Of a stretch of DNA of 64,000 nt, positions 843 to 46,326 are shown piece by piece. The notes under the pieces were generated by a model, which had not been told where the DNA came from, made no database searches, and worked only from the letters and a program-made list of their open reading frames with translations. The DNA is taken from NCBI GenBank assembly GCA_964019415.1, contig OZ025877.1, positions 4,174,242 to 4,238,241 on the forward strand, read 5' to 3'. Source of the stretch: Ianthella basta. Lineage: Eukaryota > Porifera > Demospongiae > Verongiida > Ianthellidae. How positions within the stretch are numbered: position 1 is the first letter of the stretch; every line of letters begins with the position of its first letter. A program made the position numbers and the translations under genes.

Positions 843-2065
843 GTTTGAGTAGTAGGATGTCAAGTGGCTCTGTTCGTCTTGCCAATGGAAATTTGTATTC
901 TGGCAGAGTGGAGATATGGTACTCCAATCGGTGGAATACTGTTTGTGATGATGATTGGAGCACAAATGATGCTAGAGTTGTGTGCAGGCAATTGGGCTAT
1001 TACAGTGGCGCAAGTGCTCGTTGCTGTGCATCGTTTGGCCAGGGAACAGGATCAATATTATTGGATAACCTTAGATGCACTGGATCAGAGAGCTCTCTAC
1101 TGTCATGTCCGCATGCTGGCCTGTACACACACAACTGTGGTCATAGTGAAGATGCAGGAGCAATATGTAAGCACACTTGCTCCCTAGAGATAGTAAAACA
1201 TCTCAAAGCTTACTCATGGCAGTGCTGCACTTGTGGTAATGAATCATTTATATCTATTATATATAATTATATCTATAGGCGCATATAACGGTAACACACG
1301 CTTGGTTGGTGGTTCTTCAGAAAGTCAAGGGCGAGTTGAGATTTGGTACAACAGTCAGTGGAATACAGTTTGTGATGACTTTTGGGACTTGAGTGATGCA
1401 GCTGTTGTCTGCCAACAACTTGGGTACAGAGGAGCAGTAACAGCACACCATAGTGCCCACTTTGGAGCAGGTTCGGGACAAATACTTCTGGATAATTTGC
1501 AGTGCAGTGGACGTGAAGCAACACTATTGGAGTGTACTCACAATGGGATCAATGTTCACAACTGTGGTCATCACGAAGATGCAAGTGTAACATGTGAGTG
1601 TGACTTCTACAGTCATGATTCACAAAATTGCTTCGATATGTGCTACACTTGACATGTTTGGATATCTCCTACAGTCATGAATGTGAAGAATATCTTTCTT
1701 TGAATAATGACTGAATGACTTACTATATTCTTGCACATTAGGTAGCAGCTTAAGGTATTCAAGTGGATCTGTTCGTCTTGCCAATGGACCTACATCTACA
1801 GCAGGGAGAGTTGAGATATGGTTTGCTAACCAGTGGAACACGGTTTGTGATGACAGCTGGAGCACTAATGATGGATACGTGGTCTGCCAACAGCTTAATC
1901 TGGGACTGTCAGCAGTCTACAACAGTGCTCATTATGGACGAGGTTCTGGGAAAATACTTCTAGATGATTTGAGGTGCACAGGATTTGAAAGTTCTCTTTT
2001 GGACTGCCCTCACAGTGGGACCTATGTACACAACTGTGTACACTCTGAAGATGCAAGTGTAGCAT
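843..2065 (+). CDS. aGPCR-1 SRCR block (three SRCR exons)
   Basis: Exons 843-1166, 1279-1593 and 1742-2065 each encode one complete scavenger receptor cysteine-rich domain of 105-108 residues, all phase 1 to 1. Seen in each are an opening like VRLANG or [26 protein letters not shown] or similar, the [13 protein letters not shown] strand, and the closing HNC..HEDAS/AGxxC. This is the one-exon-per-domain arrangement typical of group A SRCRs. The first domain has CCASFGQG where the others have AHxxAHFG, adding a vicinal cysteine pair. SRCR domains bind proteins and microbial polyanions in animal receptors; the ligand here is unknown. Confidence 0.93.
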
Positions 2066-5000
2066 GTGAGTGTTCATACATTCATACATTATACCAAATT
2101 CCTTTGTGAACACAATAATGACATTTTTAAAATATATACGCAGGCATGCCTTTCCTTTGAGCTTAAAGGGCCCATGACATGCCAGAACAAGTTATCTTTA
2201 TTTAATGTAAAACACCTCAAAACACCAGTGGCACTAATGAAAACTGTTCGCAATGTACACAAATGGTCTAAAACAGCTCACTTCTGGTGTCGTGCTTCAA
2301 GAAGGCAGACATTTTGCCGGGTGACGCGTTATGACGTTACAAAGGGAACACCTCCAGCTGCGACGATACATAAAATGCCACGATTAATTTTTATGGGTGT
2401 TATTTGCAAACGATTCTAGATATTAACTATAATGTCTAAACATTGTGTTGCTGGTGGGTGTAATAGAAGCACTGAAGGAGGATTCGGCCTTCACACCTCC
2501 CCCAAGGACCCTGTTAGAAAGGCGAAATGGTCTAGCAATGTAGGAAGATGGCGATCTGACTGGAATGGAGTTCAGTGGTCTGCAGTCTACACTTCACCAG
2601 AGACTGCTTTGAGTCATCTGTTGTTCACTTGAGGAGATGGGAATGCCACCTAAGAAGAGCAGCCTTAAGAGTACTGCAATCCCAACTCTCTTCCCCAAGG
2701 CAGCTACTCTGAAGACAAGGTCTATGGCCTGGGCACATGCACTCATCAATCCATTTTGAAGCTTTAAAGGCCAGTGACCCTGGAATTAGCTCCAGATATA
2801 ACAGAAATTGTGTGGCTTCATTTCTATGCATATGCAAAATGTGCTGCAGATCCTGGAGGAAATACCAGGTGTTCAGCGATCTAAAGGGAGTGACACTAGC
2901 ACAGTAGGTGAAGCAGTGAATATGGATGGCATCACAGATGAGGACTTAGACGATCTGTGTAGCTGCTCAATTGCTTCTCAGGCATCAATAGAAACTACCT
3001 CAATACACACTCAAGTAGAGCAAAATACATCAGACAGAGGTATTTTTTATTGTAGTTGCAGAAGCTGTAACAAAGTATCGTTCCCGATTTAGTCATTAAT
3101 TAATTAGTCATGCCTTCTAACTGAAAATATTTTATGATTTAAAACCATGCAACATACACCAAGTCATCTGATGGAAATGTTTCCCTGATTTTACTATCAG
3201 CGCAAGAGGGTAATACAACATGGATTTCACAGCCAAGATACCTTGCGAATTGACGGTATGAGATATATTGTAGGATCCTAACACAAAAGAGAAACATGAC
3301 ATTGTTTGTACTGTACATACAATGATATTGTACGTAGCCACAACAGAGATACATTCACTAACATACCTGTGAGGTGGCCCACTTGTTGTTTCTTGCCCAT
3401 ATATTGTTGGCGAGTCTGATAAGCAGCCGTTTGAAGTACCCATTGGTTAAGGCAAAAAGGAAAAAAAACTTCATGCTCTATAATGCGTGTAACCCCCTCC
3501 GGCACTACATCCAATTCCTTTAGCTTCTCTCCACTCTTGGAATCTCCCTGCAGCATGCAAAGACACTCGCGGGGTGTGGGCATCTGTTGACGTTTCCCAC
3601 AAGTACACCTATAATTAGTACGAAATTCAAATGCTCAATGCATATAACCGGAAAGAAACAACGAACCTGGCGAGGAATCTGCCACTCATATTTGCTTTAC
3701 TCAAGCTCTAACGCCAAACTCTACATTCAATTTAGTGATCACCCTGTTGAAATGTACTGTTATAAGTTGTGCAAGCATTTGAAACAGAGCTAGCAAAACT
3801 TATGAAACCTGTGGTGTGTATTAGGTCTATAGTATTTTCTCATGTTCAATTCAGGTGGCTCTGGCTGTCCCACACCTAGTACCTTGTCAAATGGGCAGAG
3901 AAGCGTCTCCACTACCACTATTGGAAGTACGGTCAGGTACACTTGTTACACAGGGTACATTATGACTGCAGGCAGTTCTAGTAGAACATGTCAGTCAAGT
4001 AGCTGGCCATGGTGGTCAGGAAGTCGTCCTACCTGTGCCAGTGAGTCACAAAATCCAAAGCTTATTACATACAGCATACCTCACTTGTAGTATCTTATCC
4101 TTTTTGATTGTGTAATTTTATATGTTGCAGATAGTTTAATTATAAATTTATGTTCTCACTGAGCCACTGCTCTAACTGAACATAGAATTACAATTGTAGA
4201 AAGAAATTGATCAATAATGTGGATTGCTATTATATTGAATTGTAGAAAGTTTAGTTATTGAATCAAATATATTTTGCCATATTATATCAATTGAAACTTT
4301 AAGGGTCCTGTGGCACTCCAAGCTCCTTAACAAATGGACAAAGAAGCTACTCCAGTACCACTGTTGGGAACACAGTAACCTACACTTGTAACTCAGGGTA
4401 CATTAGGACTGCAGGCAGTTCTAGTAGAACATGTCAGTCAAGTGGTGTGTGGGCAGGAAGTCATCCAACTTGTACCAGTGAGTGATTCCTAAAATAATTA
4501 TGGCATGCTGAAAACAGAATGCCCCACTTGTAATATCCTACATTAATGTCACTGCATGTGCAATTGCAGAGTTTTGGGTACATATAGTAAATGGTTGACA
4601 CACAGTACTATTTTCTGGATGTCTAGCATAGTTGTAGTTTCCTTGGCTTAGACTCTTGTAACTCTCAACGCATGTTGGTGCGGCATATCAGGGAAGCCTG
4701 CATGCTGCAGGCGGGCATTCCTGCTATAGTAGCCAGTTATATTATAGAAATGGTATTGACTGAAATTATGTGTTATGTCCAATTCTTGCATGTAATCTTA
4801 TTGTTTTGCCATTCATGTCCACAAATCTGTTAAGGGTCCTGTGGCACACCCGGTTCCTTGACAAATGGACAGAGAAGCTACTCCAGTACCACTGTTGGGA
4901 GCAGAGTCACTTACACCTGTAACACAGGGTACATTAGGACAGCAGGCAGTTCTAGTAGAACATGTCAGTCATATGGTTCGTGGTCAGGAAGTCATCCAAC

Positions 5001-11000: not shown

Positions 11001-14000
11001 TTGGCACAGCTATAACGATACGCTGCGCGTCGCCATCACCGACAAACTTAGAGATATCCTTGGCAGGCGACTGAGCCCGGAAGACGCTTTCTCTCGAAGC
11101 AGTATCATTTGTAAAGACTGTCGCATAGTGTAGCAGCCACTCTACAGGCAACTGCTTCAATCCTTGCGCCTTCTTCGCACACCGCCACACCACGTAGGGT
11201 TGAACTTGACCCACAACAAAGTTGTGTTATGAAACACCTAGTCCAGCGTTCTCACGGATATTACGCAATAACAGTCGAGCTAACTCCCAGACCCTTTCTC
11301 GGGCGCTTGCGCAATACCGGAAAGGGTCTCGCCCCGCGCGACTAGCTATTTCTTGGTCAAATTTAGTCCTGCGGCATTGTAACAAGACCACTCTGCTTAT
11401 AGAACATTGTTTAACCTTAGGCCAGTACCCCCCCCCCCCCCCCCCCCATTTGAAAGTGTGTTTAAAATGCAGATCTTCAATATTCAGAATTTTTGTTCCA
11501 GCTGCAAAAGCAGGAAAAAGCGTGAAATACGACAAAGAAACAGCTTGAATTAGAATAAATAATCATTAGAAAATGAAGCATAGATAAATATGTGGCATAG
11601 TACATTGCATAACTTTGCAAACATTCAACTAGTAAAATGTAACTGCAAAAATTATGTTGATCTAATTAATTAAACAGGAGATCTTATACTTGTTACTATG
11701 ATCAGAAGGCACACAAATGTTAGCTGTTAGGCTTATCAGATATGCTCAGTAGAATATCACTTACTGACAGATTCCTAAGGAGGAGTATAATGATATTATA
11801 TTTTTGGCTAGATATGTATAAATTTAACACTTTTCCTATTTAATCCTTTTGTGTCAGAAAGTTCTTGCTTTTTATGTCATTACATTAACATTTACATAAT
11901 ATTACCCATATAATTATATTCAAACATGACTGTAAGTTGCTCTCCTTTTCTTCTATTGCTTGCTTTTATGGAAAATGTGTTTCTAGCTATGTGATGGTAC
12001 AAAGCAGCAATAATACATTTAACAATGCTACATATGAGAAGCACACAGCCCAAAATGAATTTGTTATAATTATTATTTCATATAATTATTAAAATGTAAT
12101 ATGACACAATGATTATGCAGGTAGCACTGAAGGTAAATGTAGGACTGTCTGTGAAGTTATCGAAGGAGGTGGTGGAATACGGGATAAAGGTAGTTTTAGT
12201 CCTTAATGAGCCTGCAGAGTAACTGCCTATGGTGAAGGGGGCTGTACAGTACACACCACTAACAGTGATTACGAAATCACGTGTGGTGGAGTTATATTAT
12301 ATTGTATGCATATAGTACCTTTTAAGGGTCCTGTGGCACTCCAAGCTCCTTATCAAATGGACAAACTAGCTACTCCAGTACCACTGTTGGGAGCACAGTA
12401 ACCTACACCTGTAACACAGGGTACATTAGAACTGCAGGCAGTTCTAGTAGGAGGTGTCAGTCATATGGTTCGTGGTCAGGGAGTCACCCAACTTGTACCA
12501 GTGAGTCATTCCTAAGGAGGAGTTAACGTGACCTCCACATCTGGTCTAGCTATATTTTATGGAAAATATGTTTCTGGCTATAGTACAAAACAGCAATAAT
12601 AATTATATGGAACAATGCTACTTATGGAATGGCACACAGCCCGGAAGTAATTTGTTATAATTATTAATTATAATGCCATATGTTGTCATGATTATACTGC
12701 ACTTTAATGCTGATGATGAATGCATAGAGCTGTCTATGAAGCAAAGGAGGTAGTGGAGTAGAGGGGAATTGTATTGCTAGTCCTTTATAAAAGTGTGAAC
12801 TGGCAAAGCCTATATGGGGAAGGGGCTATACAGTACACAGTGCTAATCATGATTCCATAAAAGGTATGCGGTGTAGTCATATTATATTGAATGTATACTG
12901 TACCTTTTAAAGGGTCCTGTGGTACCCCAAACTCCTTACCAAATGGACAGAGAAGCTACTCCAGTACCACTGTTGGGAGTACAGTCACTTACACCTGTAA
13001 TACAGGGTACATTAGAACTGCAGGCAGTTCTAGTAGGAGGTGTCTGTCATATGGTGGGTGGTCAGGAAGTCATCCAACTTGTACCAGTGAGTCATTCCTA
13101 AGTATAATGCATGCTGAAAACTGAATACCCCACTTGTAGTATCCTACATTAATATCAGTGCATGTGTAAACCGTTCCTTGCAGAGTTTTGTGTGCATTTT
13201 ATTAATGGCTAACACAGGTTTCTGGAAGTTGGCCATGGTTGTAGTTTCCTTGGTTTAGACTTTTGCAACTCTCAGCGCCTGATGGTGAGCAAGGAAGCTT
13301 GCTGCAGGCGCGCTATCGTACTGGTACTCAGTAATAATCATAAAAATAATGTTGACTGATATTAATACATATTGTTATGTCCAATTGTTGCATGGAATCT
13401 TATTGTCTTGCCATTCATGTCCACAAATTGTTTAAGGGTCATGTGGTACCCCAAGCTCCTTAACAAATGGACAAAGAAGCTACTCCAGTACCACTGTTGG
13501 GAGTATTGTCGCCTACACCTGTAACACAGGGTATAGACTGACAAGAGGCAATTATAGCAGGTCATGTCAAGATGATGGAAACTGGAGTGGAAGTCATCCA
13601 ATGTGTTCAGGTCAGGTGAAACCATTAACACTTTTGACTGGCATGTTGATCCTAGTTTGCAATGTCCAAGAGACTAAACATAATATGAATGTCCACATAC
13701 AAGCGTGAATCTAATACATTAAGAATTGAGACCTTGATTACTCATCTTAATAGAATACTGAGTTTACATGACGAAGATGAGAATACAGTCTTATTCTCAA
13801 TCGTGCATGACTATACTAACTGAATACCTTCTTTCTCAGAGATAATTCCCACAATTATTGGTTTCAAGGACACTTACCTGCAAGTCAGTGACACGGAGGG
13901 AGCAGTCTCTGTCTGCCTGCAGAGGGCGATAAATCTCTACCGAGAGGACACAATCGCTGTTACTTTGCAGCAAGAAGAGGAGAAAGAGCTGGAAACAGGT

Positions 14001-17000
14001 TCACAGTGTTGTCTTAATCAATACACATAATGCCAAATTCACTTAACACTGTAGACATTCAATGACGTTGAAAATGCCTAATTTCCTATAATGATATCTA
14101 GCTACAGGTCTATACACACTTCAAAGAGTTTGGCTCACTGCCAACTGCCAAAATTTCTATATATGTATACCAGCCTATTAATTTTGAATTCACTTGTCTT
14201 CTAGGCAAATTTGATTCTGGTAACTTCAGTACATCTGTCACATTTGATGTTGGAGAAATGGAAGCATGTTTCAGATTCAATTTTGTCATTAACAATGAAA
14301 CAATAAAGTCAGAGCAATTCCAGCTGATGATGGTGAACATTTCAAATAGTACTGAGGCTAAAGTGGGTGCAGAAACTGTGGTCATCGCCATTGTGAGGAA
14401 GGATTCACGTATGTTTGCATAATTCTAAGTGAAGGTATAATACTGTCTGAGTTCTGCAAGTGAGTCTCTAGTGTCTCTCCCCCTTTTAGCTTGTCCTCCT
14501 GCTTTCCTGTTTCCTGAGACACCTATTAACTCACTGGCAAAGCACCCTTGTTCCTTACTGGATAGCAGTTTCGTACCTGGTGGCATGATAACTGCTCGTT
14601 GCTCTGTGAACAGTACATGGGATATTCTGGACATGTCTTAGTGTACATTTAGGAGTGATGCACCAGTGTCCGCAGTAGCAGTGGTGGAGGTTATTACGGA
14701 CTCAAATTCGCAACAAGGAGCACTTGAGGTATCAGTATAAGATTTTATATAATTACTGTACAGTCAGTTTGTTGGAATACACCTCAGACTTATCAGCAAT
14801 ATGCATTTGTTTGCCCTTTACAGTTAGCAATATGGGCTTAACCATAAAGCAGCTATGTGTACATGAAAATACTTTAATTGCTATTTAACATTCCTCTCTG
14901 AATTGTTTGTTACAGCGAGATCTTCAAACCTTTGTGGAAGTGACAAACATCACAAGAATAGGTTCTCATAGAGGATCACAAGTGTATTCCATCACAACAA
15001 GCATTGAAGTGGATGGAAATGCCCTTGTTCGCCACCTACAAAGTACATCAAGCAAGATTTCTGCAGTCATAATGGCTCAAAAGTCTGGTAAGTCAATCAG
15101 TCTTTGTACTCTTTCTCAAAGCAGTGTGATCAGTAACAAAGTCTGCTTCTGAATTACCTGAACACCTGCAGACTACTGTAACTGCTGTGATTACTCGAAA
15201 ATTAAGGTCCAGCCACTTTTCTCAGTAATGGCCAGCTTTCAGATATGCATTGGAAGTTATGAGGCACCACAGGCTTGTTCCTGCTCCAGTGAAGGTGTAG
15301 AGGTAAAATATAATATATTATTAATGTTAATCAAGTTCTCAACTGGTATTATTAACTCTTACATACGCTACAGTGTCTTCCAAGGTTCAGTCCTACTTTT
15401 GCTGCACCTGATGTAGCCCAATGCTTTCTAGATGTTGATGGTGACAGGAAACCAGATAATATACAGGTGAAAAATTTATGATATATATACAAATGACGCA
15501 TTTTTACCATAATTATTAATATCACTGTAATGCACTCAGCATCACAAGCTGTTTTGACCTCAATGATTAGCTTAGCTGTTCATCAGCTTTCATTCTCTAG
15601 CCCACTCACAATCAATGAAATACTGTATTAATACCAAATTATCATGATTTCTCCCTTAGGACCCCTGTATTGGATGTTGTCTACCAGACTTTGACCTGAC
15701 CTTCCAGTGGCCTAAAACTACTCACAATACGGTAGCTGAGTTGCCTTGCTCCACAATTCATTCCAGTTTCTCCAATACCAAAGTACAAAGGAAGTGTCTT
15801 CCTGATGACTCTTGGGAGCCAGCAGACATCAGCTCATGCACTTTCAAGAACACCACAAGGAATCCGATCTACCTCCTCACAACTAATGTGACAATGAGGT
15901 TTCAAAAGAACAGCTCAGAAGCAATCAATGCATTAAAGGCCGCCGTTGTGAAACAGGTAACCATGTTACAAAGCAAAATCTCTTTCTAAGTTCGCATGCA
16001 ACTGAATGAAAATTGTGTGCTTGCAATTTGAGTAATGTATTTATCTTTATTGGGTTTAGCTGGATAAATTGACTGAAGGAGATTCTCTCAGCAACACTTC
16101 CTACCAGATCACAGCACAAACCATCACCAGTGGTGAAGCAAACACTTCAATTGTCCTGCTGGTAGTAGAGTTTCTACCAAGTGTGAACCTAACAGAAAAT
16201 GCTACAGTTTCTACTACAGTGAATGACCCATTCAATGGTGAAACTTATACCATAACACAGATCATCGCTGCCAAACCTTCAGGTGAAGAATTTGCATAAT
16301 TAATTATTATGTGAAGGCATTAACATTAATCTTATGCATACACTCTTAATGATGCTTATTTTATCTTGGCTTATAGTTATAATGCATGACATTGACCATG
16401 CATATAATATTATAAAGGATTACTCTCTTCTATTGGCTATATGCACAATGTGCTGCAGATTCATGTTCCTGCAAAGCGGGGTCTGGCCAGGTTGCCCATC
16501 TCTGTGTTGGCCCATCAAGTAGCCCATGTGACTGCAACAGCTTTAGGACATGTGAAGTAAGTAGACAATGAATTTCAGTTGACTATAGTATTATATTGTG
16601 TACTGGTGAATGTACATGACGTGGAATGACAAAATATACTTCAAATTGCAATATGCAGTGCATTGATCCATATGTGAAGGATGACAAGAGTGGTCAGTGT
16701 TCCTTGGACACAGATGGAGATACCATTCCAGACTACAGAGTAATTTGATTGGTCACACACAGTTACCCAAAGCTATATAAACCAGTCTCACGTTGTACAT
16801 TCTCAGTTTTGTATGCAGTTGACGAAGGCCTTCAGGTCGAAATGTCCTGCATTCAGTTGTTGAATAATCTGCTATGTCTTACCCACAAACTATTTGCCTG
16901 CATTAAACAACGTAGCAATGAGCCTCTTCTTCTACACTAGAGTAATGGAATTGGCATGTAGTCATGCATAATTAAATTCGGAATCCAATAATGCGTATAA

Positions 17001-20000
17001 TTAAGTGAACAAAACATGCTTGTCCAATTATTGTCAGATGCTAGCTGAGGAGTAAAATGAACTCTGCTTACAGTTATTGGAGCTCATTCTGTGTACCTAG
17101 GATTCCTGTCTTGACAGATATGGACCAAACAAAACTAGAGGATGCCGTAGGTTCTCATTTGATAAGTAATTTGCATAGCTCTAAGCAAATGTCATTATCA
17201 AACAAATTGATGCTAATAGAATTAATATTATTACTGCTATTTTGCACATATACAGCTATTGCCATCAGCAGTTATCTAGCAGTAGAATGCCTTCCAGAGC
17301 AAGATGAACTGTGGAAAATCCAGTGGCCTCTTGCTGCACCTGGTTCTACTCAGTCAGTTCGCTGCCCAGGGGAGGGAGATACTATTTCACCAGGGTTGGC
17401 TCACAGGAGCTGCCTGTCTGGTGGCACTTGGGGCCCTGTGGATGCAACAGCCTGTGAGTCTGCAGCCGTCCGAGAAGTCAGAATTAAGGTACTTATTATA
17501 ATCTTTGCACTTGTTTGTCAAGTACATTCAATAGTTGTCCGAATTGCATTATATCATAATGTATTATGTACAACATTTTGTTCGCACAAATTAACTTCAG
17601 AATTATAATTGGCTGAATTTAAATTGCAGACCAAGAATTTTGTTGCTGCTCTGAACGAGACTTTAAACAGTGACCTTCCCATCTTGGATGCAGACAGGTT
17701 GAAGGTAGAGAGATTGTCAGTCTCTCTTCGAGATGCTCTAAACCATTCAACAATTGAAAATGAGAGACCAGTACTTCCTCGAGACTTGGAAACAGCAACT
17801 CATTTTGTGGAAGTTGTAGCTAAGTGAGTAACTGGAAACCCAGTCAGCTTGTTCCATACTGACCAAGCTTACATTGTTACTTTAGAATAATTATACAGTT
17901 ATATGGTTACTATGACAAAACAGCTTATATAATATTCTTACATTAGTGTCCTAAATATAATGCAGTTTATCTGAAAACAATGGCCTGTTTAATGGTAATA
18001 ATCAGGAGACCGAGAAAGGGCAGCAGAAGAAGGTACACACTACAGTTCAAGTATATTGCACACACAGAATTGTATATTTGCACTTGTACTCTATGTACTT
18101 TGTAGGTTATGGCAGACATTGTCAGCTCCCTTCTGGAAGAGAAGAATGCACCAGCCTTTGAAGCAACAGATAAGGTGGAATTTTACAGAAGGATATATCT
18201 AATTTTGCAGTTTGGTTGCTGCAGTTGCCCATAACATTGTTCAGACTATTGCCATTAACATTGTTTATAGTGTAGTAAATGCGTAAAATGTGTTCTTGCC
18301 TTCATTGTACATTCATTCATAGCGTGCTTTTCCATGATATACAAAAACATGCAGAATCCCTCCACAAGGCTCCTCAAGGCCACAGAAACAATGGCTAATG
18401 CAATAACATCTTCACTCACTATCAGCAAGCCTAGTGTCACCATATCAAGACCCAACTTTGGTAATTCACAAACCTTCTGTGTTTTTCAGTAGGCTTATCC
18501 TAATGATTTGTTTGACATTTTCCTTTCCTGCAGCATTACATGGCACAATGCTTTCCTCCAATCAGTTGCAATCACATGATAGTATTCAATTTCCTGATGC
18601 TTCAGTACAGCTACCTCAGTTCAGCAGACCAGAAAGTATCCCTCAGATTAAACTTCCTATCACGTTTATCTCTACAGCCAGACACAAAAGAGAGACATCT
18701 ACAGTGAATGAGACAGCAGAGGGTGACACAGTGGTGGAAGTGGTAAATGTAGTCATGAACAACATTGAGGAATACCTTCCAGCTGCAAATGGTGGAAAAG
18801 AAAGGTGATAGACAATTACCATTGCTCCACCTTGGTCCTATAGTAATTATATTTCAGCTGTATAGTGTCCTCTTCCCTGGGCCATATCTAATGCATTATA
18901 ATAATACAATTATAGGTATTTCATGGGTATTAACGGTATACATATATTCATTAGTAATTATTTATGACGATACAGTACCCATCCACTGCCAGGTCAAAAT
19001 GGTGTTGTTTATGACTGCTGCAAAGTATAAGGTGTCGATTATATTTATTCCTATCGGTTGATATGTTCAATACCATATCTAGAGAAATGACTTTAATGAA
19101 AGTGGATGTATTTGCAATTGTGTGAAAGAAAGTATTGTGACAGTCACAATGTGATTCAACAGTGAATGGACTGCTTTGGTTCTCATACCATGCACTCTCA
19201 CCATGCTGTTTATTAATTCACCTTAGATTGCTAGTAGTAAACATTTCTGCTTAACATGCTATAACACTCTTGGTAGAATTACGCAAACATATACAGTATT
19301 CCATTAATTGCGTATAATGGTGCAGCACAATACAATAAAAGGTAGTATTGCTGCTGCACATAACTGTTCACATGCACAGAGCACTGTTCTTATGAATATA
19401 CACTTCTTTTGTATTTTGCAGTGATGAACCATCTAATGATACTGTTCCAGCTAGCCTTGTGCTTTCCAGCCAAATCCCTGGCTACGATGGTAGGGAATTG
19501 GACTTCAATGAGACTGTGGAGCTGACATTCCCAATAAAGGTATGAATGAATGATCACAATAAGTAAGAGAGTGTGCATTCTTGCTTTTAACGTTAACCCA
19601 TTGGAAGGTTATGAAAATATATTCATTAAAGTATGTAAGAATATGGGTAGCTCTAGGACAAAAGACATGCATTGTGTATGCTTCAATTACCTGAGATTAG
19701 ACAGATTTCTGCTAATGACTAGGGACATATAATTAACCAAATTGTCTTATTCCTTAACAGAAAGAGGCAATAAATGCAACTGTCCCTGCTGGTAAAGTGA
19801 AAAAGTTTCGTTGTGCCTTCTTCAACTTCACTGGATCAACCAAAGGGATTGGATCCTGGTCCTCTGCAGGGCTGAATTCTGTAGCCTTCAATGGCACTCA
19901 TGTTCAATGCAAGGCCTCTCACTTGACAAGCTTTGTGGTTTTAGTCAGCATTTTGCCTTCAGAAGATCTGGTGAGTGTGAAATAATTGATTGAAATTATA

Positions 20001-22943
20001 GTAAAAGGCTTGCACAATCATACAAGCCTTTACATGTGTCTCCTCTCTATCTTTTGCAGCCTCCACTAAATTTCATCACGTATATTGGCTGTGGCATTTC
20101 ATTCCTTTGCTTGATTGGAGCAATAATATTTTTCCTGTCACTCAGGTTAGGACACAGCAGATAATAAATCCATGCTACATCAACTCATTAAATCATGTAT
20201 TGACACCGCTGCAGAAAGGAGTTAATTCAGAAGCTGCACAACTTTGTCCACCTCAACTTGTGCATTGCCCTGTCCTTGGGACTGCTACTGTTCCTCACTG
20301 GAGTACAGACAGCAACAGCCAATATGGTAACTAAAATGTGCACCTATGTTTGTTCCGATGGTGTGCTGTTGCAACCTAGTAAATGATGCATTAAATGATT
20401 TGCAAACAGAGCAGCATAGGACACTTTAATATAAAAGCTATTTTATATTTTATTGGTAACTAAATTGACATACACTTGCTTCTGTAAACTTTGTGTGTTA
20501 ATGTCCAGTTCACGTTCATAATTCCGATACTATAGGGAGCCTGCAAGTTTGTCACTGCCTTGCTGCACTACTTCTTCCTGGCTACCTTCACTTGGGCACT
20601 GTGCGAAGCTGTCCTCATTTACAACCTACTTGTGAAAGTATTTGGAGCGAATGACAGAAAATGGCTCTACATCTATCTGGCACTGGGATGGGGTAAGCTA
20701 TGTCTCACGGTACATGTTACGTTGTATAATCCTCATAAATTTATACAATGGAAGTCTGTCTACTATTTTCGTAGGTATCCCCATTCCCATTGTGGTGATT
20801 GCTGCTGGTTTGAGACATGACCACTACTTCATCAGACACTCATATGATGAGCATAGCCCACACTACAATGTAGTCAAGGCGTAAGTCATAGACATCCAAT
20901 GTTACTTAAATATATTAACTTTTTGTATTTCATGAATAATACTTGAATGAAGATTTCTCAATTCACTTGCTCCATAAACAGTTGCTGGTTGCCCAGTGAG
21001 AAAGGGATGAATTTTGCTTTTGTTGGACCAATGATAGCCATTATTGTGGTGAGAGATATAGGGAGTCATACAATTATACTGTATGATTGGAAGTTATGAG
21101 CAAATAATTACTGTTCACTTGTCTATATGGACACTTACGTACTGCGCTAGGCATGTCACTGATTTTATTATTACCATTACGTAGTGTGTACTGCTTGCTC
21201 CTGTATTCCTTTGGGAATGCTGTACAGGTGAATGCCACACTGCTCACTGTAAGTTTAGTGTCACTGGCTAAGTCTCAGTGTGGAAGAGTTGGAGGTGATG
21301 AAAAGGCAAAGCAAACCAAGGAGTATCTGGAAGTGGGAAAGTGAGAATTATGCTAGTCACAATTATGCCACCATTCCGTCCATATTTCAGTACTAAAATA
21401 CCTCTGTGAGTTCACCATAATTTTATAACTAAGAGGTTGGTTCATTGCAGTAGGCCACTGCAATTGACAGGCCAGGCTAGGTTGAACAAGGGCTAATCAC
21501 TGGATTGTTGGACCTACCGGTCTTCTACACCACACACTCTCTGGAGGCTGGGGGGGGCTGGAGCCCTATTGATGGTTACCTTTGATCGCTTTCCAGTTGC
21601 CGTCAATTAGGCTCTGGCCCCCAGCCTCCTGACATACTACGACTGGTGTAGAAGGCTGGTAGGCATAAAATCCAGTGATTAGTCCTTGTTCAATACTGTA
21701 TGGCTACCCTGTTGCCAATTGAAGAAACCAGTTTTCCAGGCCTGAATTTTGTAGAAAGATAAATATAGAGCACATAAGTAACACTAATAATTAAAGAAAA
21801 ATGTGGTATGCTATGTGTATAATATTACCCATTGTATGCTGATTCTTAGTATATGGCTAGATTGTTTCAACTGTTGCATCAGGCACAACCCATTCAATGA
21901 CTATTAAATTAATAGAGATTGGCTTCATTATAATTATATATTATGCTCATCCACATTCAGGCGTCTTCTTAAGGCCACAGTCATCCTTGTTCCTGTACTT
22001 GGCTTCACCTGGATCATTGGACTGTTTGCAGTTGGGGAGGAGGGGAGAGTCTTTGCCTACCTCTTTGTCATTGCCAATGTGTTTCAGGTGAGATAAGGTT
22101 AAGGAGATAATAGAATAAACATCCATTACAATAGACTACAGGTGTAATTGCTATGCCTTAGCTAAGAACACTTACGTACCAATTCAAAATATTAGTATCT
22201 GATCACCCTGTATCCCTAAGTTTAACAGAATTGATCGTAATTGCAATGCTGCTCATCCAATACCCTATGCACTGCAGGGATTGTTCATATTTCTATTTCA
22301 TGTCGCAAGACATGAGAAAGTGTGGGGGAAGATAAAGGCCAAGCTGCCTAAACTGAAGGTATGCACTAGCATCATAAAACTATTATGAACACATAATTAA
22401 AGTAATCACAGCGCTTGTTTGAGACAGGTTCCCAGTAAATTATATATCATAATTATGTTCATTCAGGACTTGAGCACTGAGCGTACAAGATCCAATGTGA
22501 ACACTACAGGTATTGCCAGATATACCACTTGACCACTTGTGAAATGTATGCTTTAACTTCATAGTGATATATACTCTATGCACATGCTGCCATTTCCTCT
22601 TTCAATAGCCACCCTTACGAGGTCCACCGGGAGGCCAGGAGACTTTGCAAGCTCCAAGCATTCTGCTTCCATGGCACACACAGAAACATGTGTAGATGGC
22701 AGAGAAGATATGGAGCACAGTGTGAATGGCCACGGCACATGGATGCTGGATGAAATGTCTAGCACTGTTGATCACGCTAGACCAAATAATGACTATGAAG
22801 CACCACCCCATCCCTTTGAAGCTCCCTCTGTCTATGATACACCCTATGCCATTACCACCACTGTATTTGCAGAAGACATCTATGTTGTGCAGGATGATCA
22901 TGAGGAGCCAGTATATGCCAATATCCAGAGAAGCATCCGATAA
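843..22943 (+). CDS. aGPCR-1: SRCR/CCP/Calx-beta/HRM/GAIN/7TM adhesion GPCR, 5' partial, in-frame stop
   Basis: About 43 exons: SRCR x3, CCP x11, two Calx-beta-like exons, an HRM/TSP3-like stalk, GAIN with GPS, seven membrane segments and a tyrosine-rich tail ending at TAA 22941-22943. Every junction follows GT-AG and the phases are continuous throughout. The family is made at the cell surface, usually self-cleaves at the GPS, and signals through the 7TM part after ligand or mechanical engagement. The SRCR exons are assigned here because the neighbouring paralogue has the same SRCR-then-CCP order, although a transposon-filled intron of 1.8 kb separates them. An in-frame TAG at 14639-14641 splits the reading frame, so the full-length product is in doubt: it may be a pseudogene, a null allele, or an exon that is bypassed. 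Confidence 0.85.
2432..2640 (+). pseudogene. THAP-type zinc-finger fragment with a frameshift
   Basis: The frame from ATG 2432 reads [10 protein letters not shown], then [14 protein letters not shown] and a tryptophan-rich stretch, matching the start of a THAP (C2CH) domain. The expected second half, [13 protein letters not shown], is present but in another frame from about 2570, so the domain is broken by one frameshift. THAP domains bind DNA and are common in P-element-type transposases and domesticated derivatives. Being intronic and broken, this is best read as a transposon relic rather than a gene. Confidence 0.7.
3380..3600 (-). pseudogene. P2RX7 C-terminal-like cysteine domain fragment
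   Basis: Read on the minus strand from about 3600 the sequence gives [18 protein letters not shown], followed by [29 protein letters not shown] and TRQQYMGKK. This is the pattern of the P2X7 intracellular cysteine-rich domain as it occurs in many invertebrate proteins and transposon-associated genes (CxCG, MPTxxECLC, then CLxxWVLxxA and YRxxYG). No downstream continuation is clear. It lies antisense inside an aGPCR-1 intron and looks like a mobile-element remnant or retrogene fragment. Confidence 0.6.
3855..13610 (+). CDS. aGPCR-1 CCP/sushi block (eleven exons)
   Basis: Exons: 3855-4040, 4304-4477, 4835-5008, 5513-5686, 7181-7354, 7711-7884, 8234-8407, 9686-9859, 12327-12500, 12913-13086 and 13437-13610. 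All are phase 1 to 1; ten are exactly 174 bp and the first is 186 bp. Each codes for one sushi domain with the pattern SCGTP, [22 protein letters not shown], RxCQSxGxWSG and HPTC. Most copies are nearly identical in coding sequence, and flanking intron sequence is also repeated, so the block grew by recent tandem duplication of exon plus intron. The first and last modules are the most divergent. CCP domains mediate protein binding in complement-type and adhesion proteins. Confidence 0.93.
6505..6535 (+). pseudogene. Truncated CCP exon remnant
   Basis: The sequence GGTCCTGTGGTACCCAAAGC after an AAAG acceptor is the exact start of the neighbouring CCP exons (compare 7181). Homology ends after about 30 bp, so the rest of the module is gone. 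The preceding intron sequence matches other duplicated units, so this is a lost twelfth module. Confidence 0.8.
6715..7025. mobile_element. MITE with about 70-bp TIRs and a 9-bp TSD (Mutator-like)
   Basis: The left end starts TAGTCTCGCG and the right end finishes CGCGAGATTA; the inner arms match imperfectly over about 70 bp, including TTGCACAATCGCG and CAGACTTGA. The element is flanked by GGGAATTGT at 6706-6714 and 7026-7034, a perfect 9-bp target-site duplication. Related empty-site sequence occurs in the duplicated intron near 12761. Long TIRs with 9-bp TSDs are the hallmark of Mutator-like elements. No transposase is present, so it is non-autonomous. Confidence 0.85.
8601..9062. mobile_element. 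TTAA-flanked MITE, piggyBac-like
   Basis: The element begins CCCATTAGCGCC and ends with GTGCTAATGGG, giving inverted termini. It is flanked by TTAA at 8597-8600 and 9063-9066. A TTAA target and CCC...GGG termini fit non-autonomous piggyBac-type elements. There is no transposase frame inside the 462 bp. It sits in the intron between CCP exons 7 and 8 of aGPCR-1. Confidence 0.75.
10290..10345. repeat. Probable interspersed repeat fragment
   Basis: A stretch containing GGGGGTCTGGGG followed by CACGTCCCCCAGAAAATG has an internal near-palindrome and a higher GC content than the surrounding intron. It looks like a transposon end, but its boundaries are not defined here. Confidence 0.35.
10718..11344. 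mobile_element. Mutator-like non-autonomous element, 627 bp, with zinc-finger-like coding remnant
   Basis: Left arm TAGTCTCGCGGGGCCAGACC and the reverse complement of the right arm TAGTCGCGCGGGGCGAGACC match over about 70 bp, ending in a shared GGGTCTGGGAGTTAGC. Flanks are GCTATTCCT (10709-10717) and GCTATTTCT (11345-11353), a 9-bp TSD with one mismatch. Inside, about 10940-11130 reads [19 protein letters not shown], then after a frame change [17 protein letters not shown] and IICKDC. This CxxC...CxxC arrangement resembles a ZAD-type zinc finger. The element is GC-richer than the host intron. Confidence 0.8.
11429..11448 (+). repeat. Poly-C run
   Basis: About 20 consecutive C bases follow CAGTAC shortly after the Mutator-like element. 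Such runs are length-variable and error-prone in sequencing. Confidence 0.9.
13840..17488 (+). CDS. aGPCR-1 stalk: Calx-beta-like, HRM-like x3, TSP3-like loops, Cys-rich exon
   Basis: Twelve exons: 13840-13998, 14205-14408, 14490-14728, 14916-15087, 15172-15302, 15374-15466, 15660-15956, 16060-16282, 16459-16556, 16659-16739, 17101-17146, 17256-17488. The first two form a Calx-beta-like fold ([19 protein letters not shown], later [14 protein letters not shown]). HRM-like modules with C...WP...C...C..W...C occur in 14490-14728, 15660-15956 and 17256-17488. Acidic calcium-loop motifs [14 protein letters not shown] and [13 protein letters not shown], followed by cysteine-bearing linkers, resemble thrombospondin type 3 repeats. 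Exon 16459-16556 has six cysteines in a CxC...CxC layout. Exon 14490-14728 contains the in-frame TAG. Confidence 0.8.
14639..14641 (+). other. In-frame TAG stop in the first HRM-like exon of aGPCR-1
   Basis: The exon reads STWDILDMS, stop, CTFRSD. In aGPCR-2 the aligned exon is [16 protein letters not shown], with CAG at this place. A single C to T change explains the stop. The exon is otherwise intact: 239 bp in both copies with conserved splice sites. It enters in phase 1 and leaves in phase 0, so skipping it alone would shift the frame. Confidence 0.9.
16740..17100. other. Intron with a GAAGGCCT...GGTCGAAA repeat motif
   Basis: The intron between the two TSP3-like exons contains GACGAAGGCCTTCAGGTCGA at about 16829-16850. 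The same core recurs in the palindromic element at 24336-24519. It is probably the end of an interspersed repeat; no coding signal was seen. Confidence 0.45.
17630..19970 (+). CDS. aGPCR-1 GAIN domain and GPS cleavage motif
   Basis: Exons 17630-17823, 17966-18032, 18106-18174, 18355-18460, 18534-18804, 19422-19539 and 19761-19970. The helical part contains [17 protein letters not shown] and [14 protein letters not shown]; the beta part contains [18 protein letters not shown]. The last exon carries the [35 protein letters not shown]. The HLT tripeptide, where GPS autoproteolysis occurs between L and T, is intact. Two of the four usual GPS cysteines are replaced (GL for GC, CKA for CxC). A furin-type RHKR sits in exon 18534-18804. 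Confidence 0.88.
18680..18691 (+). other. Furin-type RHKR site inside the aGPCR-1 GAIN region
   Basis: The codons read R-H-K-R followed by E-T-S-T. R-x-K/R-R is the consensus for furin-like convertases. aGPCR-2 has ARRRV in the aligned place, a weaker match. Some adhesion GPCRs are cut by furin in addition to the GPS; whether this one is used is unknown. Confidence 0.4.
20060..22943 (+). CDS. aGPCR-1 seven-transmembrane domain and cytoplasmic tail
   Basis: Exons 20060-20145 (TM1), 20215-20326 (TM2), 20536-20692 (TM3), 20775-20880 (TM4), 20982-21048 (TM5), 21228-21340, 21961-22087 (TM6 and start of TM7), 22278-22358, 22467-22509, 22609-22943. Class B2 signatures are visible: [16 protein letters not shown] in TM3, CWLPSEKG then FVGPM in TM5, [19 protein letters not shown] in TM6, and [18 protein letters not shown] at the end of TM7. 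The last exon encodes an acidic, tyrosine-rich tail with [22 protein letters not shown] and [12 protein letters not shown] followed by I is a pYxN-type SH2 docking motif, so tyrosine phosphorylation is plausible in addition to G-protein coupling. Confidence 0.93.
21434..21730. mobile_element. Long palindromic MITE in an aGPCR-1 intron
   Basis: The two halves are imperfect inverted repeats. Left TTGAACAAGGGCTAATCACT and ACCGGTCTTCTACACCA match the reverse complement of the right half (TTGAACAAGGACTAATCACT, ACCAGCCTTCTACACCA). The centre holds a second inverted pair (GAGGCTGGGGG and CCCCCAGCCTCC). No coding capacity. The whole element could fold into one hairpin of about 130-bp arms. Confidence 0.75.

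Positions 22944-25268: not shown

Positions 25269-25337
<69 letters not shown>
25247..25337 (+). repeat. (TG)n microsatellite
   Basis: Nearly pure TG repeat with a few interruptions, preceded by imperfect GACT repeats from about 25207. Apparent long frames across it are repeat artefacts. Confidence 0.95.
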
Positions 25338-25341
<4 letters not shown>

Positions 25342-26748
25342 AGAAGCTGTATGAGTATAGCAGAAGAGTGACAGATCTGCAGATGATAAATCTGGCATTA
25401 AGAAGGTAAAAATATTTTGCCTGGTTGCAGGTCCAGTCATACTTGTGAACCATAAACCACTGGGGAGATTATAGCAACATGTGGAATTCTCCCTTAGGTG
25501 CTTGCATACACACTTACCATGCAGTGTTCAGCACTGGTTGTGCAACTTATGCTACCAACCTAGATATACAAGTGCAGGTGGGAAAGTTCTTCAGCAAGGA
25601 GCTTAGGTCAAATGATTATGACTTGACTGTATTGATCTGTTCCTTCCTTGCCTGCATTTCATGTCATGTAGTCCTAATTAGTTAAAAGACATTTCACCTC
25701 AATGATAAGCACAAAAGTCAGAATCTAGACTCATGGTCACTGAAGATTGGGTATAAGGAACATAAATAACAAGTGGGAGCACTAGAAACAGATCCGTGAG
25801 TTTGGTTTTGGAGGTTATAGTTCTCTAATGTTGTTTTGGCATAACATAAGCCCTTCAAATAAATTAATCAGTGGACTGCTGTATGTTGTTGTAGGGTGCC
25901 TAATGTTGTATTGCCTATGACTAAGTGATAGTGGGTTTCTTGCAAATATACTGGGGTTCATCCAAGTTGAGTGTGTAGTCACATGGTCTTTAATGAGGTC
26001 AATCGTACCACCAGAAGTATTATGATGCATGAAGCAAGGTAAAGGGATGAAGATTTTCTTTAACTAAAGTCTCATGTGGGATGGCCTATTTAGTTAGTAA
26101 AATAACACATGGCTAGGACAGTGTTGTTAGCAACATGATATTCCATGTATAAAATCTATTATTTATGTTCATTTGTTTGTCGGTTGATCTCAGTTCAAAG
26201 AGAAGCTACAGCACAAGGCACAAGGCACGACCAAACTCTCAGGGACTATGAATCTACTGATTGTCAAGTGTCCTCCATGCATTGAAATCTTCTGTCTTAA
26301 TGTTCTTGGTGGAATATCCTTCGACTTACCGCTTTGCTAATTATATGATGAACTAGGAAATCTACATGGCATCAAACTTCCTCATTTTGCCTCAGTAGTG
26401 ATAAATTGTATTTTGCTACGCATTTTGCAGTATACAATTATTATTATACATATATATTTCCAGGAGTTGTCTTGCTCAATGGGGTTTTTGAAGTCTATTC
26501 ACATTACACTGTGGAAGGCACAACAAAGGTAAGAGCTCATATAACATAATCATATCCAATTCCAGCGCGGCATTGCTGCCATTTGCAATTGAGTAGAATA
26601 TGGAAGTTAGACCGAGATTATTATGAATCTATTGTTTGTGGTTTCCTAAGTCATTGCTATAATTGCTAGTACCTAGTATAAAAGTGATTTACTAAACCCA
26701 TTTATGTGAAAGCACCTGTCACAGGCACTACAGTGCCTAGTGCAGACA

Positions 26749-26812
26749 ATGTCAGAATTGAGCCTCATCATTACTGCTGCAGTACTGCTGATCTACCAAC
26801 AAACGACACAAG
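26749..26812 (+). CDS. aGPCR-2 exon 1, candidate signal peptide
   Basis: ATG at 26749 opens [16 protein letters not shown], then QQTTQ and a split glycine codon before GTATGC. The hydrophobic core and small polar end fit a signal peptide. The exon is 64 bp (21 codons plus one base), leaving phase 1, which joins the SRCR exon at 27865. A competing frame over the same bases gives [15 protein letters not shown] and has no leader. There is no transcript evidence. Confidence 0.6.
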
Positions 26813-44800: not shown

Positions 44801-46326
44801 ATGAGCTAACTGCTACTGGTATATAGGTGCTGTCCACTTGTCAGTATTGTGCACTATATAATATATGCCTGTCTCTAAAATTATTTTTGTGAATGCCAAT
44901 GTATTAAGTACTGCTTGTTGCTGTATCCCATGAAACCTGCACAGGTGAATGTTGTACTACTCACTGTGAGCTTGGTGTCACTAGCCAAGTCTCAGTGTGG
45001 GAGTGTGGGAGATGGTGAGAAAGATAAACAAACGGAGCAGTATCTTGAAGTGGGAAAGTGAGAACTATATATGCATACATACATCGCCAATCCATTCACT
45101 ATAATACTACTAATGCTCTGTTACCAACAAAGTTAATACAGTTTACAAGCCTGTAATAAGAGATGAATAATGACAGTTACTGTATAATGCACACAGGCAT
45201 TCACAAGTAATGCTCTTACCCATTTGCTTATGCCAGGCCTAGTTGTGGAATACACTGTATGCTGATTTTCAGCTCATGACTAGGATGCCACCATGCATGC
45301 ACTATTCCATCATGCACAATCCATCCAGTGACTATATGAATGAATATTACTGCCTCGATAATCTTACCCGCAGGCGTCTTCTGAAGGCCACAGTCATCCT
45401 TGTTCCTGTACTTGGCTTCACCTGGATCATTGGGCTGTTTGCAGTTGGGGAGGAGGGGAGAGTCTTTGCCTACCTCTTTGTCATTGCTAATGTGCTTCAG
45501 GTGAGACAGCTGTCAAGAGTTAAGCATTCACAGGTGCAATGTCTATGTCGTAGCAAAGAACGGTATCCATCAGTTGATAATAGTTGCAGCAATAATTTCA
45601 CGGTATCTCTATAAGTTTGTTAAACTATAGAATAATTATCAATGTTGTTAATCCTATACTCTACTATTGCAGGGGTTGTTCATATTTCTGTTTCATGTTG
45701 TAAGGCATGAGAAAGTGTGGGGGAAGATAAAGGCAAAGCTTCCTAAACTGAAGGTATGCAGTGACGTCATCAATTAATGTGAATACATACCTAAAATTAT
45801 TTTTTATCACAGCTCTTGCGTGAGATAGGTTAATAAGTACCTTATGTATTACTCATTCAGGACTTGAGCACTGAGCGCACAAGATCAAATGCAAACATTA
45901 CAGGTATTGTCAGGTTCACCGCTTGTGAACTGTATGCTCCAGCTTCATAGTGATACACTGTGTGGCTAAATGCTTTCATTTCCTCTTTCATTAGCCACCT
46001 ATACAAGATCCACAGGGAGGCCAGGAGACTTTGCCAGCTCCAAGCATTCTGCTTATATGTCACACACGGAAGCAAGTGTTGATGGCAGAGGAGATATGGA
46101 GCACAGTGTGAATGGCCAGAACACATGGATGCTGGCTGAAATGTCTAGCACCTTTGATGACACAAGACCAGATAATGACTATGAAGCACCACCCTATCCC
46201 TTTGAAGCTCCCTCTGTCTATGATACACCCTATTCCATTTCCACCACTGCATTTGCAGAAGACATCTGCGTTGTGCAGGATGATCATGAGGAGCCAGTTT
46301 ATGCAAATATCCAGAGATGCATCTAA
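26749..46326 (+). CDS. aGPCR-2: complete SRCR7/CCP7/Calx-beta/HRM/GAIN/7TM adhesion GPCR
   Basis: About 44 exons, from a signal-peptide exon (26749-26812) to TAA 46324-46326. Order: SRCR x7, CCP x7, Calx-beta-like, HRM-like x3 with TSP3-like loops, GAIN/GPS, 7TM and tail. All exon phases join without a break and I found no in-frame stop. The 29 exons after the CCP block match aGPCR-1 one to one, most with identical lengths. It should be a type I-like surface receptor with a very long ectodomain and an autoproteolytic GPS. The start is an inference: the signal exon is the only upstream segment with both a hydrophobic leader and a phase-1 donor that fits the first SRCR exon. Confidence 0.9.
27865..32280 (+). 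CDS. aGPCR-2 SRCR block (seven exons)
   Basis: Exons 27865-28179, 28529-28855, 29732-30046, 30656-30982, 31077-31391, 31485-31814 and 31966-32280, each one full SRCR domain, phase 1 to 1. Two types are visible. A 315-bp type with AVTAHxxAHFG (domains 1, 3, 5, 7) alternates with a 327-330-bp type, of which domains 2 and 4 carry CCASFGQG. Domains 1, 3 and 5 share GRVEIWYxSQWNT and YRGAV. The alternation indicates growth by duplication of a two-domain unit. Confidence 0.94.
28180..28528. other. Intron, nothing else seen
   Basis: Short AT-rich intron between SRCR exons 1 and 2 of aGPCR-2. Confidence 0.6.
33073..37329 (+). CDS. aGPCR-2 CCP/sushi block (seven exons)
   Basis: Exons 33073-33243, 33677-33850, 35057-35233, 35793-35969, 36132-36305, 36724-36897 and 37153-37329, all phase 1 to 1. 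Unlike aGPCR-1 these modules are diverse. Modules 3, 4 and 6 share GRNYxxxxTFSCNT and [17 protein letters not shown] segments. Module 2 resembles the aGPCR-1 type ([17 protein letters not shown]). Module 5 begins [16 protein letters not shown], like a typical complement-type sushi. Confidence 0.93.
34540..34580 (+). repeat. Short tandem duplication
   Basis: TAAGGCAGTCATTATTTG occurs twice in direct succession within a CCP intron. Confidence 0.85.
37580..41337 (+). CDS. aGPCR-2 stalk: Calx-beta-like, HRM-like x3, TSP3-like, Cys-rich
   Basis: Exons 37580-37744, 38037-38228, 38338-38576, 38743-38914, 39012-39142, 39232-39315, 39495-39791, 39905-40127, 40300-40397, 40512-40592, 40749-40794 and 41105-41337. 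They correspond to those of aGPCR-1, and eight or more have identical lengths. The first HRM-like exon reads through CAG where copy 1 has TAG. The TSP3-like loops read [13 protein letters not shown] and [13 protein letters not shown], followed by [15 protein letters not shown], the classic DxCPxxxxxxxxxxC linker of thrombospondin type 3 repeats. For the second Calx-beta exon I chose the acceptor at 38035-38036, because the one at 38002-38003 would create a stop at the junction. Confidence 0.8.
41451..43618 (+). CDS. aGPCR-2 GAIN domain and GPS
   Basis: Exons 41451-41647, 41761-41824, 41910-41978, 42208-42313, 42441-42723, 43168-43270 and 43409-43618. [31 protein letters not shown] and [12 protein letters not shown] match copy 1. 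The GPS exon has [17 protein letters not shown] and [15 protein letters not shown], with HLT intact and the same two GPS cysteines missing. The intron after 41824 starts GCAAGC, a GC-AG intron; copy 1 uses GT there. Confidence 0.88.
42800..43040 (-). repeat. tRNA-headed SINE or tRNA-derived repeat
   Basis: On the minus strand from 43040 the sequence gives GTAGCTCAGTGGCAGAGCAC, then CTGGC-AGTTTAA-GCCAG, then a T arm CTGAG-TTTGATT-CTCGG. These are A and B box-like elements with clear D, anticodon and T stems. The acceptor stem has mismatches and position 33 is G, so it is not a working tRNA; by position the anticodon would be TTT (Lys). The unrelated tail toward 42800 suggests a SINE in the GAIN intron of aGPCR-2. 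Confidence 0.6.
43793..46326 (+). CDS. aGPCR-2 seven-transmembrane domain and cytoplasmic tail
   Basis: Exons 43793-43878, 43957-44068, 44260-44416, 44492-44597, 44687-44753, 44945-45057, 45374-45500, 45673-45753, 45861-45903 and 45995-46326, phases identical to copy 1. TM3 [18 protein letters not shown]5 CWLPSEKG and FVGPM, TM6 [19 protein letters not shown], and [19 protein letters not shown] after TM7. The tail keeps [14 protein letters not shown] and EEPVYANIQ, ending RCI. The membrane region is the most conserved part between the two genes. Confidence 0.93.

Follow-up and report, generated by a model that had tools for sequence, protein, structure and literature searches.

Two tandem genes in the window

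We analysed a window of 64,000 nucleotides from the sponge Ianthella basta, corresponding to positions 4174242-4238241 on the + strand of contig OZ025877.1 (here C10) in a genome of 209 Mb and 96 contigs. The window contains animal-type multi-exon genes, including two large tandem genes, A and B. As read from the sequence, B is in all likelihood one intact gene for a large adhesion G protein-coupled receptor (GPCR), and A is a sister copy, interrupted by a stop codon. A preliminary description had proposed two tandem genes at these positions, and both are real: B has its ATG at 26749, and the stop codons of B and A end at 46326 and 22943, respectively. The frame of B is intact and open, while A, as assembled, is interrupted by a TAG in the exon encoding its first HRM domain.

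A comparison of the two halves of the window, using blastn and tblastn, gave conserved blocks in the same order. The exon of each block was defined as the A/B pair with equal phases, a good protein alignment, and acceptable AG/GT sites; the search for SRCR and CCP exons was restricted to phase 1-1. Second-ranked pairs were used for the core exons E14 and E26, based on the exon ends, and for E11, E15, and E16, in favour of phase continuity. The absence of phase breaks is therefore partly by construction. This between-copy pairing replaced an automatic exon chaining by codon and splice scores, which was dropped after yielding spurious exons and drifting on retraining.

Gene B comprises 44 exons from the ATG to the stop codon, open over 2586 codons (2586 amino acids), and gene A comprises 43 visible exons from 843 to the stop at 22943, with 2374 visible codons and one internal TAG. 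The exons of A, and those of B, join without a phase break. The log10 probability that the 44 exon lengths and phases of B would be open at random antisense positions was −58.7. Splice scores were weak for six exons in A and five in B. The median intron measures 187 bp in A and 172 bp in B, and the longest in B (1206 bp) leaves little room for a hidden gene boundary.

Spliced B encodes, in order, a signal peptide, seven SRCR domains, seven CCP domains, a Calx-beta-like region, HRM, TSP3-like, HRM, TSP3-like, and HRM units, GAIN/GPS, a seven-transmembrane (7TM) domain, and a tail with tyrosine motifs. A follows the same order, with three SRCRs seen and 11 CCPs ahead of the common stalk, GAIN/GPS, 7TM, and tail. 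The domain order given in the preliminary description was thus borne out in both genes. The exons of B are as follows.

26749..26812, + strand: signal-peptide exon, a hydrophobic ATG exon with a phase-1 donor (ends in phase 1)
27865-28179, 28529-28855, 29732-30046, 30656-30982, 31077-31391, 31485-31814, 31966-32280, + strand: seven SRCR exons, phase 1-1 (Pfam SRCR)
33073-33243, 33677-33850, 35057-35233, 35793-35969, 36132-36305, 36724-36897, 37153-37329, + strand: seven CCP/Sushi exons, phase 1-1 (Pfam Sushi)
37580-37744, 38037-38228, + strand: E1-E2, Calx-beta-like, below the Pfam cut-off
38338-38576, 38743-38914, 39012-39142, 39232-39315, + strand: E3-E6, HRM1, linker, Cys-rich stretch, TSP3-like motif
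39495-39791, 39905-40127, 40300-40397, 40512-40592, 40749-40794, + strand: E7-E11, HRM2, linker, Cys-rich stretch, TSP3-like motif
41105-41337, 41451-41647, 41761-41836, 41910-41978, 42208-42313, 42441-42723, 43168-43270, 43409-43618, + strand: E12-E19, HRM3 and GAIN with GPS, motif HL/TSF
43793-43878, 43957-44068, 44260-44416, 44492-44597, 44687-44753, 44945-45057, 45374-45500, 45673-45753, + strand: E20-E27, 7TM
45861-45903, 45995-46326, + strand: E28-E29, cytoplasmic tail with two YxxP motifs and EEPVYANI near its end, stop codon

Within 26001-27865, no hydrophobic ATG exon other than the signal-peptide exon has a phase-1 donor; within 23000-27880 there is one more. Between A and B (23303-24010) lies a remnant of another GPCR copy, consisting of a GPS-like and a TM6-like exon.

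The first exons of A are not visible, because window positions −4999..0 read N. Its visible exons are as follows.

843-1166, 1279-1593, 1742-2065, + strand: three SRCR exons; 5′ end of the gene not visible
3855-4040, 4304-4477, 4835-5008, 5513-5686, 7181-7354, 7711-7884, 8234-8407, 9686-9859, 12327-12500, 12913-13086, 13437-13610, + strand: 11 CCP exons
13840..14408, + strand: E1-E2, Calx-beta-like
14490..14728, + strand: E3 (HRM1 exon), with an in-frame TAG
14916..17146, + strand: E4-E11, linker, Cys-rich/TSP3-like, HRM2, linker, Cys-rich/TSP3-like
17256..19970, + strand: E12-E19, HRM3, GAIN/GPS (HL/TSF)
20060..22943, + strand: E20-E29, 7TM, tyrosine-motif tail, stop codon

The TAG of A lies at 14639-14641 (codon 1134 of the visible frame). 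Seven other copies of the gene, described below, carry a glutamine codon at this position and stay open beyond it; copy Y also keeps the glutamine but has a stop at the next codon. A is probably non-functional as assembled. Alternatively, A might be functional and its stop an error in sequencing or assembly, a segregating null allele, or an interruption bypassed by skipping E3 and E4. This is possible but doubtful. In its favour, the TAG is the sole internal stop among the visible codons, E3 and E4 form one phase 1-1 unit, so that skipping both would keep A in frame, and the ratio of nonsynonymous to synonymous divergence (dN/dS) between A and its relative X1 is 0.28. It is opposed by the glutamine of the seven other copies and by the A-X1 ratio, which is higher in the tail (0.52) and in E1-E2 (0.42) than elsewhere. 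For A alone, decay appears likely.

Two further observations concern A. Its CCP2-10 (nine exons, 4304-13086) are mutually close (mean pairwise dS = 0.247, dN/dS = 0.26), as would be expected after recent local expansion. The intron between its SRCR and CCP blocks contains a THAP-domain-like open reading frame (ORF; 2420-2629; 20.8 bits, below the cut-off of 23.9), perhaps a transposon remnant.

Domains of the encoded receptors

In the Pfam search of spliced B, the SRCR, CCP, HRM, GPS, and 7tm_2 models all scored over their cut-offs. Seven stretches matched SRCR (E = 2.2e-212) and seven matched Sushi/CCP (E = 1.8e-71, 236.8 bits). SRCR domains carry 6 or 8 cysteines. Each SRCR exon encodes 5 or 7 (28 of 28 domains), and a junction cysteine follows every SRCR in the spliced A and B proteins, giving the number typical of the superfamily. 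The E3-E8 piece of B matched HRM in two stretches (49.1 bits), the better one in E7. The third HRM scored 22.9 bits in context and 28.5 as a lone exon, around the cut-off of 26.2, and its counterparts in eight of eight paralogues match the HRM profile.

The signalling half matched 7tm_2 (174.2 bits in B; cut-off 20.6) and GPS (37.2 bits; cut-off 22.5) in six of six copies. Hydropathy values above 1.6 in B are confined to the C-terminal 7TM part, where they mark six of the seven helices; TM3 lies under the threshold. A GAIN-7TM profile built from six copies aligned with ADGRL3 in the PDB (7wy5, E = 1.2e-50, profile positions 170-616 of 627), over the later part of GAIN, GPS, and 7TM. The array copies are therefore clearly related in sequence to latrophilins over this part. 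ADGRL3 has the order HRM-GAIN-GPS-7TM, and latrophilins carry lectin and olfactomedin domains, not SRCR or CCP. Unlike them, the genes described here have three HRMs, two TSP3-like units, and only half of the usual GPS cysteines. The GPS matches, Pfam GAIN matches in two of the six copies, and the ADGRL3 alignment together place GAIN and GPS before TM1, the arrangement that defines adhesion GPCRs.

The cleavage motif HLTSF is present in all nine copies of exon E19 that were read. Together with the hydrophobic stretch behind it, the ten-residue sequence is the same in eight of these copies and reads HLTSFAILVS in the ninth. Two or three YxxP motifs are present in each of the seven tails read, and six of these also have EPVYANI, with X1 as the exception; we take both to resemble SH2-binding motifs. 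By profile and motif, B and its relatives are adhesion GPCRs of class B2.

Several results weigh against the domain chain as named. The Pfam GAIN model matches only the two copies mentioned. Adhesion GPCRs usually have four GPS cysteines, of which E19 keeps two, with the other two replaced in nine of nine copies; this cysteine set is not strictly defining, and the GPS profile still scores over the cut-off. The HRM profile also matches the CCP part of B (50.7 bits), and the HRM and CCP calls are thus not fully separate. Calx-beta reached 18.4 bits in B, below the Pfam cut-off of 27; six of seven paralogues match at E ≤ 1 (best 9.9e-6), and a PDB profile search of the region returned no Calx-beta chain. 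The TSP_3 scores in B (15.4 and 19.9 bits) are below the cut-off of 25; six of 11 stretches match at E ≤ 1 (best 5.8e-4), and all 11 keep the motif DxDxDxxPD. We therefore name these regions Calx-beta-like and TSP3-like only.

The Cys-rich and TSP3-like stretch is present twice. The two units align with 18 invariant positions over 11 sequences, indicating an internal duplication in the stalk. A SEA-like fold was considered for the linkers after HRM1 and HRM2, and was unsupported by Pfam (both linkers), by the PDB (the second), and by comparison of the linkers with each other; they were left unnamed.

A gene array with a common core

Searching the genome with the HRM2 exon gave 63 matches, including 27 with at least 53% identity over at least 84 residues, distributed as nine on C10, two on C41, 15 on C18, and one on C13. 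The GPS exon gave 53 matches, and the tail exon gave 11, on C10 or C41 only. Besides A and B, we read the DNA of eight copies: Z, C, D, E, X1, X2, Y, and C41a. The copies on C18 and C13, the C10 copy at 4053 kb, and the second C41 copy lie outside the analysis. Core phases were imposed when exons were sought in the other copies. All 29 core exons were found in each of Z, D, C41a, and X1, 28 in C, and 14 in X2, up to the end of the DNA read. In copy Y, 26 were kept, after E27 was dropped and E7 trimmed to its conserved start. In copy E, ten were kept (E12-E21), after weak matches at E3, E4, E5, E8, E11, and E25 (SRCR or noise) were dropped before counting.

The order SRCR, then CCP, then HRM3-GAIN occurs in five copies, A, B, C41a, Y, and E. 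Their SRCR counts are 3 (seen), 7, 7, 4, and 7, and their CCP counts are 11, 7, 8, 7, and 3, respectively. Copy E lacks E1-E11, and its CCP array ends approximately 290 bp before the HRM3 exon; its frame is nevertheless intact, because phase 1 is common to the ends of the CCP exons and the start of HRM3. Other copies carry different ectodomains. Z has seven and C has 21 FN3 exons in addition to CCPs (FN3 placed by position only), while D, X1, and X2 show only CCPs in the DNA read, which covers the upstream DNA of X1 in part. On the exons matched, A and B are members of a tandem array with a common core and with ectodomains of SRCR and CCP, of FN3 and CCP, or of CCP only.

B, E, Y (two candidates), and C41a each have, ahead of the first SRCR, a short ATG exon that is hydrophobic and has a phase-1 donor. 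Similarity in the DNA of these signal exons was detected between B and Y only, and the DNA upstream of B matches that of Y, not that of C41a or E. A second type of signal exon precedes C, D, X2, and a putative single-pass gene at 50605. The one at window positions 58932-59060 is likely the start of copy C, which extends to 4275.6 kb on C10, with its 21 FN3 exons beyond the window.

The gene at 50605-54322 lies between B and C. It consists of a second-type signal exon, four CCPs, a hydrophobic span in ORF 52960-53127, and an ORF of 385 amino acids (53165-54319) that contains tyrosines and recurring YAAL...Y stretches and matched nothing in Pfam. This gene seems to have the 5′ module of the CCP-type GPCR copies and a single-pass core.

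Elsewhere in the genome, the fifteen relatives of the HRM2 exon on C18 (1.70-2.12 Mb; identity 53-66%) form a second array, where the matches listed include neither SRCR nor CCP. A dense cluster on C12 (4.78-5.04 Mb) comprises apparently intronless class B-type 7TM genes with ORFs of mostly ~650-890 amino acids and a Cys-rich N-terminus, which is presumably somatomedin-B-like. More large SRCR/CCP exon clusters appear among the matches listed at C8 3.37-3.48 Mb, C16 1.83-1.86 Mb, and C6 5.6-7.1 Mb. No relative of the HRM2 exon was found in collections of genome contigs and viral contigs, so the domain order was not comparable in another species.

Between B and C41a, dN/dS over the 1390 core codons is 0.24, with lower values for the 7TM (0.11) and the seven SRCRs (0.22). 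These values and those between A and X1 indicate that the ectodomain, the 7TM, and the tail are under purifying selection. The dS between A and B falls from 0.86 in E1-E2 and 0.81 in E3-E11 to 0.34 in the 7TM and 0.22 in the tail, as expected if the 3′ parts have been homogenised by exchange.

The purifying selection on both ectodomain and 7TM, together with the order repeated in five copies, suggests that the SRCR/CCP and GPCR parts most likely belong to one gene, not to two neighbours. The coupling of recognition modules to a cleavable GPCR, claimed at the outset, is thereby supported: the chain is phase-consistent and ends in a GAIN-7TM part with a cleavage motif. A division of the gene between the CCP block and the stalk appears unlikely.

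Some observations count against intact genes of this kind across the array. Copy C is damaged; E17 is broken. Copy Y is also damaged, with stops in E3, E4, and E12 and no AG before E7, and one CCP of C41a contains a stop. E22 of copy E was not found in the 700 bp after E21, and the genome search detected no tail exon near Y or E. Furthermore, the exon models were made with imposed phases.

It is highly improbable that two kinds of gene lie side by side, a secreted or single-pass SRCR/CCP gene upstream of an HRM-GAIN-7TM gene, so that the chain is an artefact on paper. SRCR/CCP clusters do occur at C10 4.35-4.56 Mb with no 7TM match among the matches listed, the gene at 50605-54322 joins CCPs to a transmembrane span and tail without the GPCR core, and the exon phases were imposed in part. 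However, the last CCP is separated from the first stalk exon by only 250 bp in B and 229 bp in A, with fitting junction phases, and the order recurs in five copies, including the ~290 bp interval in copy E. No membrane span exceeds the hydropathy threshold before the 7TM of B; no search was made for an internal signal-peptide exon.

That both genes are decaying, functionless duplicates is scarcely credible: the stop in E3 of A, the lesions in Y, C, E, and C41a, and the GPS/TM6 remnant between A and B (~23303-24010) would fit decay, but B is open over its entire length, and its dN/dS against C41a is low in the core, 7TM, and SRCRs.

Apparent ectodomain exchange and possible function

The outer and inner parts of A have different nearest relatives. 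We chose Y as the root of every core tree; the E3-E19 tree does not include E, the E12-E21 tree does not include X2, and the E20-E29 tree includes neither. The E3-E19 tree (nine copies) joins A to X1 and X2 (100/100) and B to C41a (100/100). The 7TM-tail tree again groups A with X1 (89/96) but leaves the B-C41a pair nearly unsupported (42/12). X1 and X2 are thus the core sisters of A, and no SRCR was seen in either. In a tree of 28 SRCR domains, the three SRCRs of A pair instead with those of Y (A1-Y2, 96/87; A2-Y3, 97/92; A3-Y4, 100/100). Consistent with this, dS between A and Y is 0.372 for the paired SRCRs vs 0.821 for the core (computed without E4 and E7), while the A-X1 core value is 0.175.

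This discordance between the SRCR and core trees and divergences suggests that recognition modules were swapped between GPCR cores, through phase-1 exons. The support comes from few copies, one of which (Y) is damaged, and from X1 upstream DNA read in part. Copies of one ectodomain type are not grouped together on the core tree, where as few changes were needed in 99 of 200 shuffles; this result fits swapping, but in a set of nine copies only.

Alternatively, there might have been no swapping: the ancestor of the array would have had SRCRs, which A and Y kept and which disappeared or were replaced in X1, X2, D, Z, and C. The SRCR label alone needs two changes on the core tree, and losses would be easy with phase 1-1 exons. 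Descent with loss explains this label, but not the age difference between SRCRs and core, for which differing rates or SRCR-only conversion would be needed. We regard it as unlikely.

If swapping occurred, its mechanism may lie in the exon phases. Phase 1 bounds the SRCR, CCP, and stalk modules on both sides, so that unequal exchange between neighbours would join a new cassette to a working core without a frameshift. A broader reading, which we consider rather improbable and offer tentatively, is that the array is a receptor-diversification system. SRCR, FN3, and CCP cassettes, which apparently carry their own signal-peptide exons and perhaps promoters, would be re-paired repeatedly with the one conserved, cleavable GPCR core and with the single-pass tyrosine-tailed core at 50605-54322, by germline exchange and possibly inter-gene splicing, and individuals would differ in their sensor repertoires.

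As a receptor, the protein would act through its cleavable core. The GAIN domain is predicted to cut itself at HL/TSF, and the SRCR/CCP arrays may bind a surface-bound ligand, such as a microbial glycan, the matrix, or a glycoprotein of another cell. Ligand binding combined with force, or shedding of the N-terminal part, would bare the tethered agonist TSFVVLVS and activate the 7TM, and phosphorylated tyrosines in the tail could recruit SH2 adaptors.

An immune function is plausible. There is also a serious prospect, if one short of probable, that the same gene serves in allorecognition or as a cell-matrix adhesion receptor, not as an innate immune sensor. Calx-beta, CCP, and SRCR domains also occur in adhesion proteins. 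Sister copies with FN3 and CCP, or with CCP only, share the same core, and ectodomain turnover fits self/non-self recognition as well as pathogen recognition. Against this, the expansion of SRCR proteins in sponges is discussed as immune in the parts of the reports considered here (PMC10855680, PMC6208332).

The preliminary description knew of no described family with this combination. The full SRCR-CCP-Calx-HRM-TSP3 chain was indeed unmatched in our search of part of the literature, but SRCR-bearing adhesion GPCRs, as a kind, are not new. In the sections consulted, SRCRs are described in the N-termini of amphioxus adhesion GPCRs (PMC2246102, 2008), a distant lineage compared by description only, and the Amphimedon queenslandica adhesion GPCRs Aq712029 and Aq715659 bear several SRCR repeats, as here (Krishnan et al. 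2014, PMC4302439). Sponge adhesion GPCRs also occur with HRM, GPS, and fn3 according to the latter paper, whose figure 4 legend does not name CCP, Calx-beta, or TSP3 among the domains; the comparison is again by description only. Unlike here, the part seen describes no array or cassette swapping. Placozoans have C-type-lectin adhesion GPCRs (PMC6321704), which, as excerpted, likewise place a putative pattern-recognition ectodomain on an adhesion GPCR, with a C-type lectin where A and B have SRCR and CCP. The SRCR superfamily is expanded in sponge, sea urchin, and starfish, and 7tm_2 is among the top SRCR co-domains in A. planci (table 1 of PMC10855680). The portion of that paper considered here gives domain counts, and no shared-core array with exchanged ectodomains is described there. 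Nor did our partial literature search return such an array elsewhere.

The shared-core array with discordant ectodomains, missed in the preliminary description, is the more interesting finding than the domain combination itself. It provides a concrete locus with several copies, where an adhesion GPCR has apparently had its N-terminal half exchanged while the signalling half remained unchanged. Two questions thereby become accessible to tests: by what route adhesion GPCRs came to have such diverse N-termini, and whether early animals couple recognition of the scavenger type directly to signalling through G proteins.

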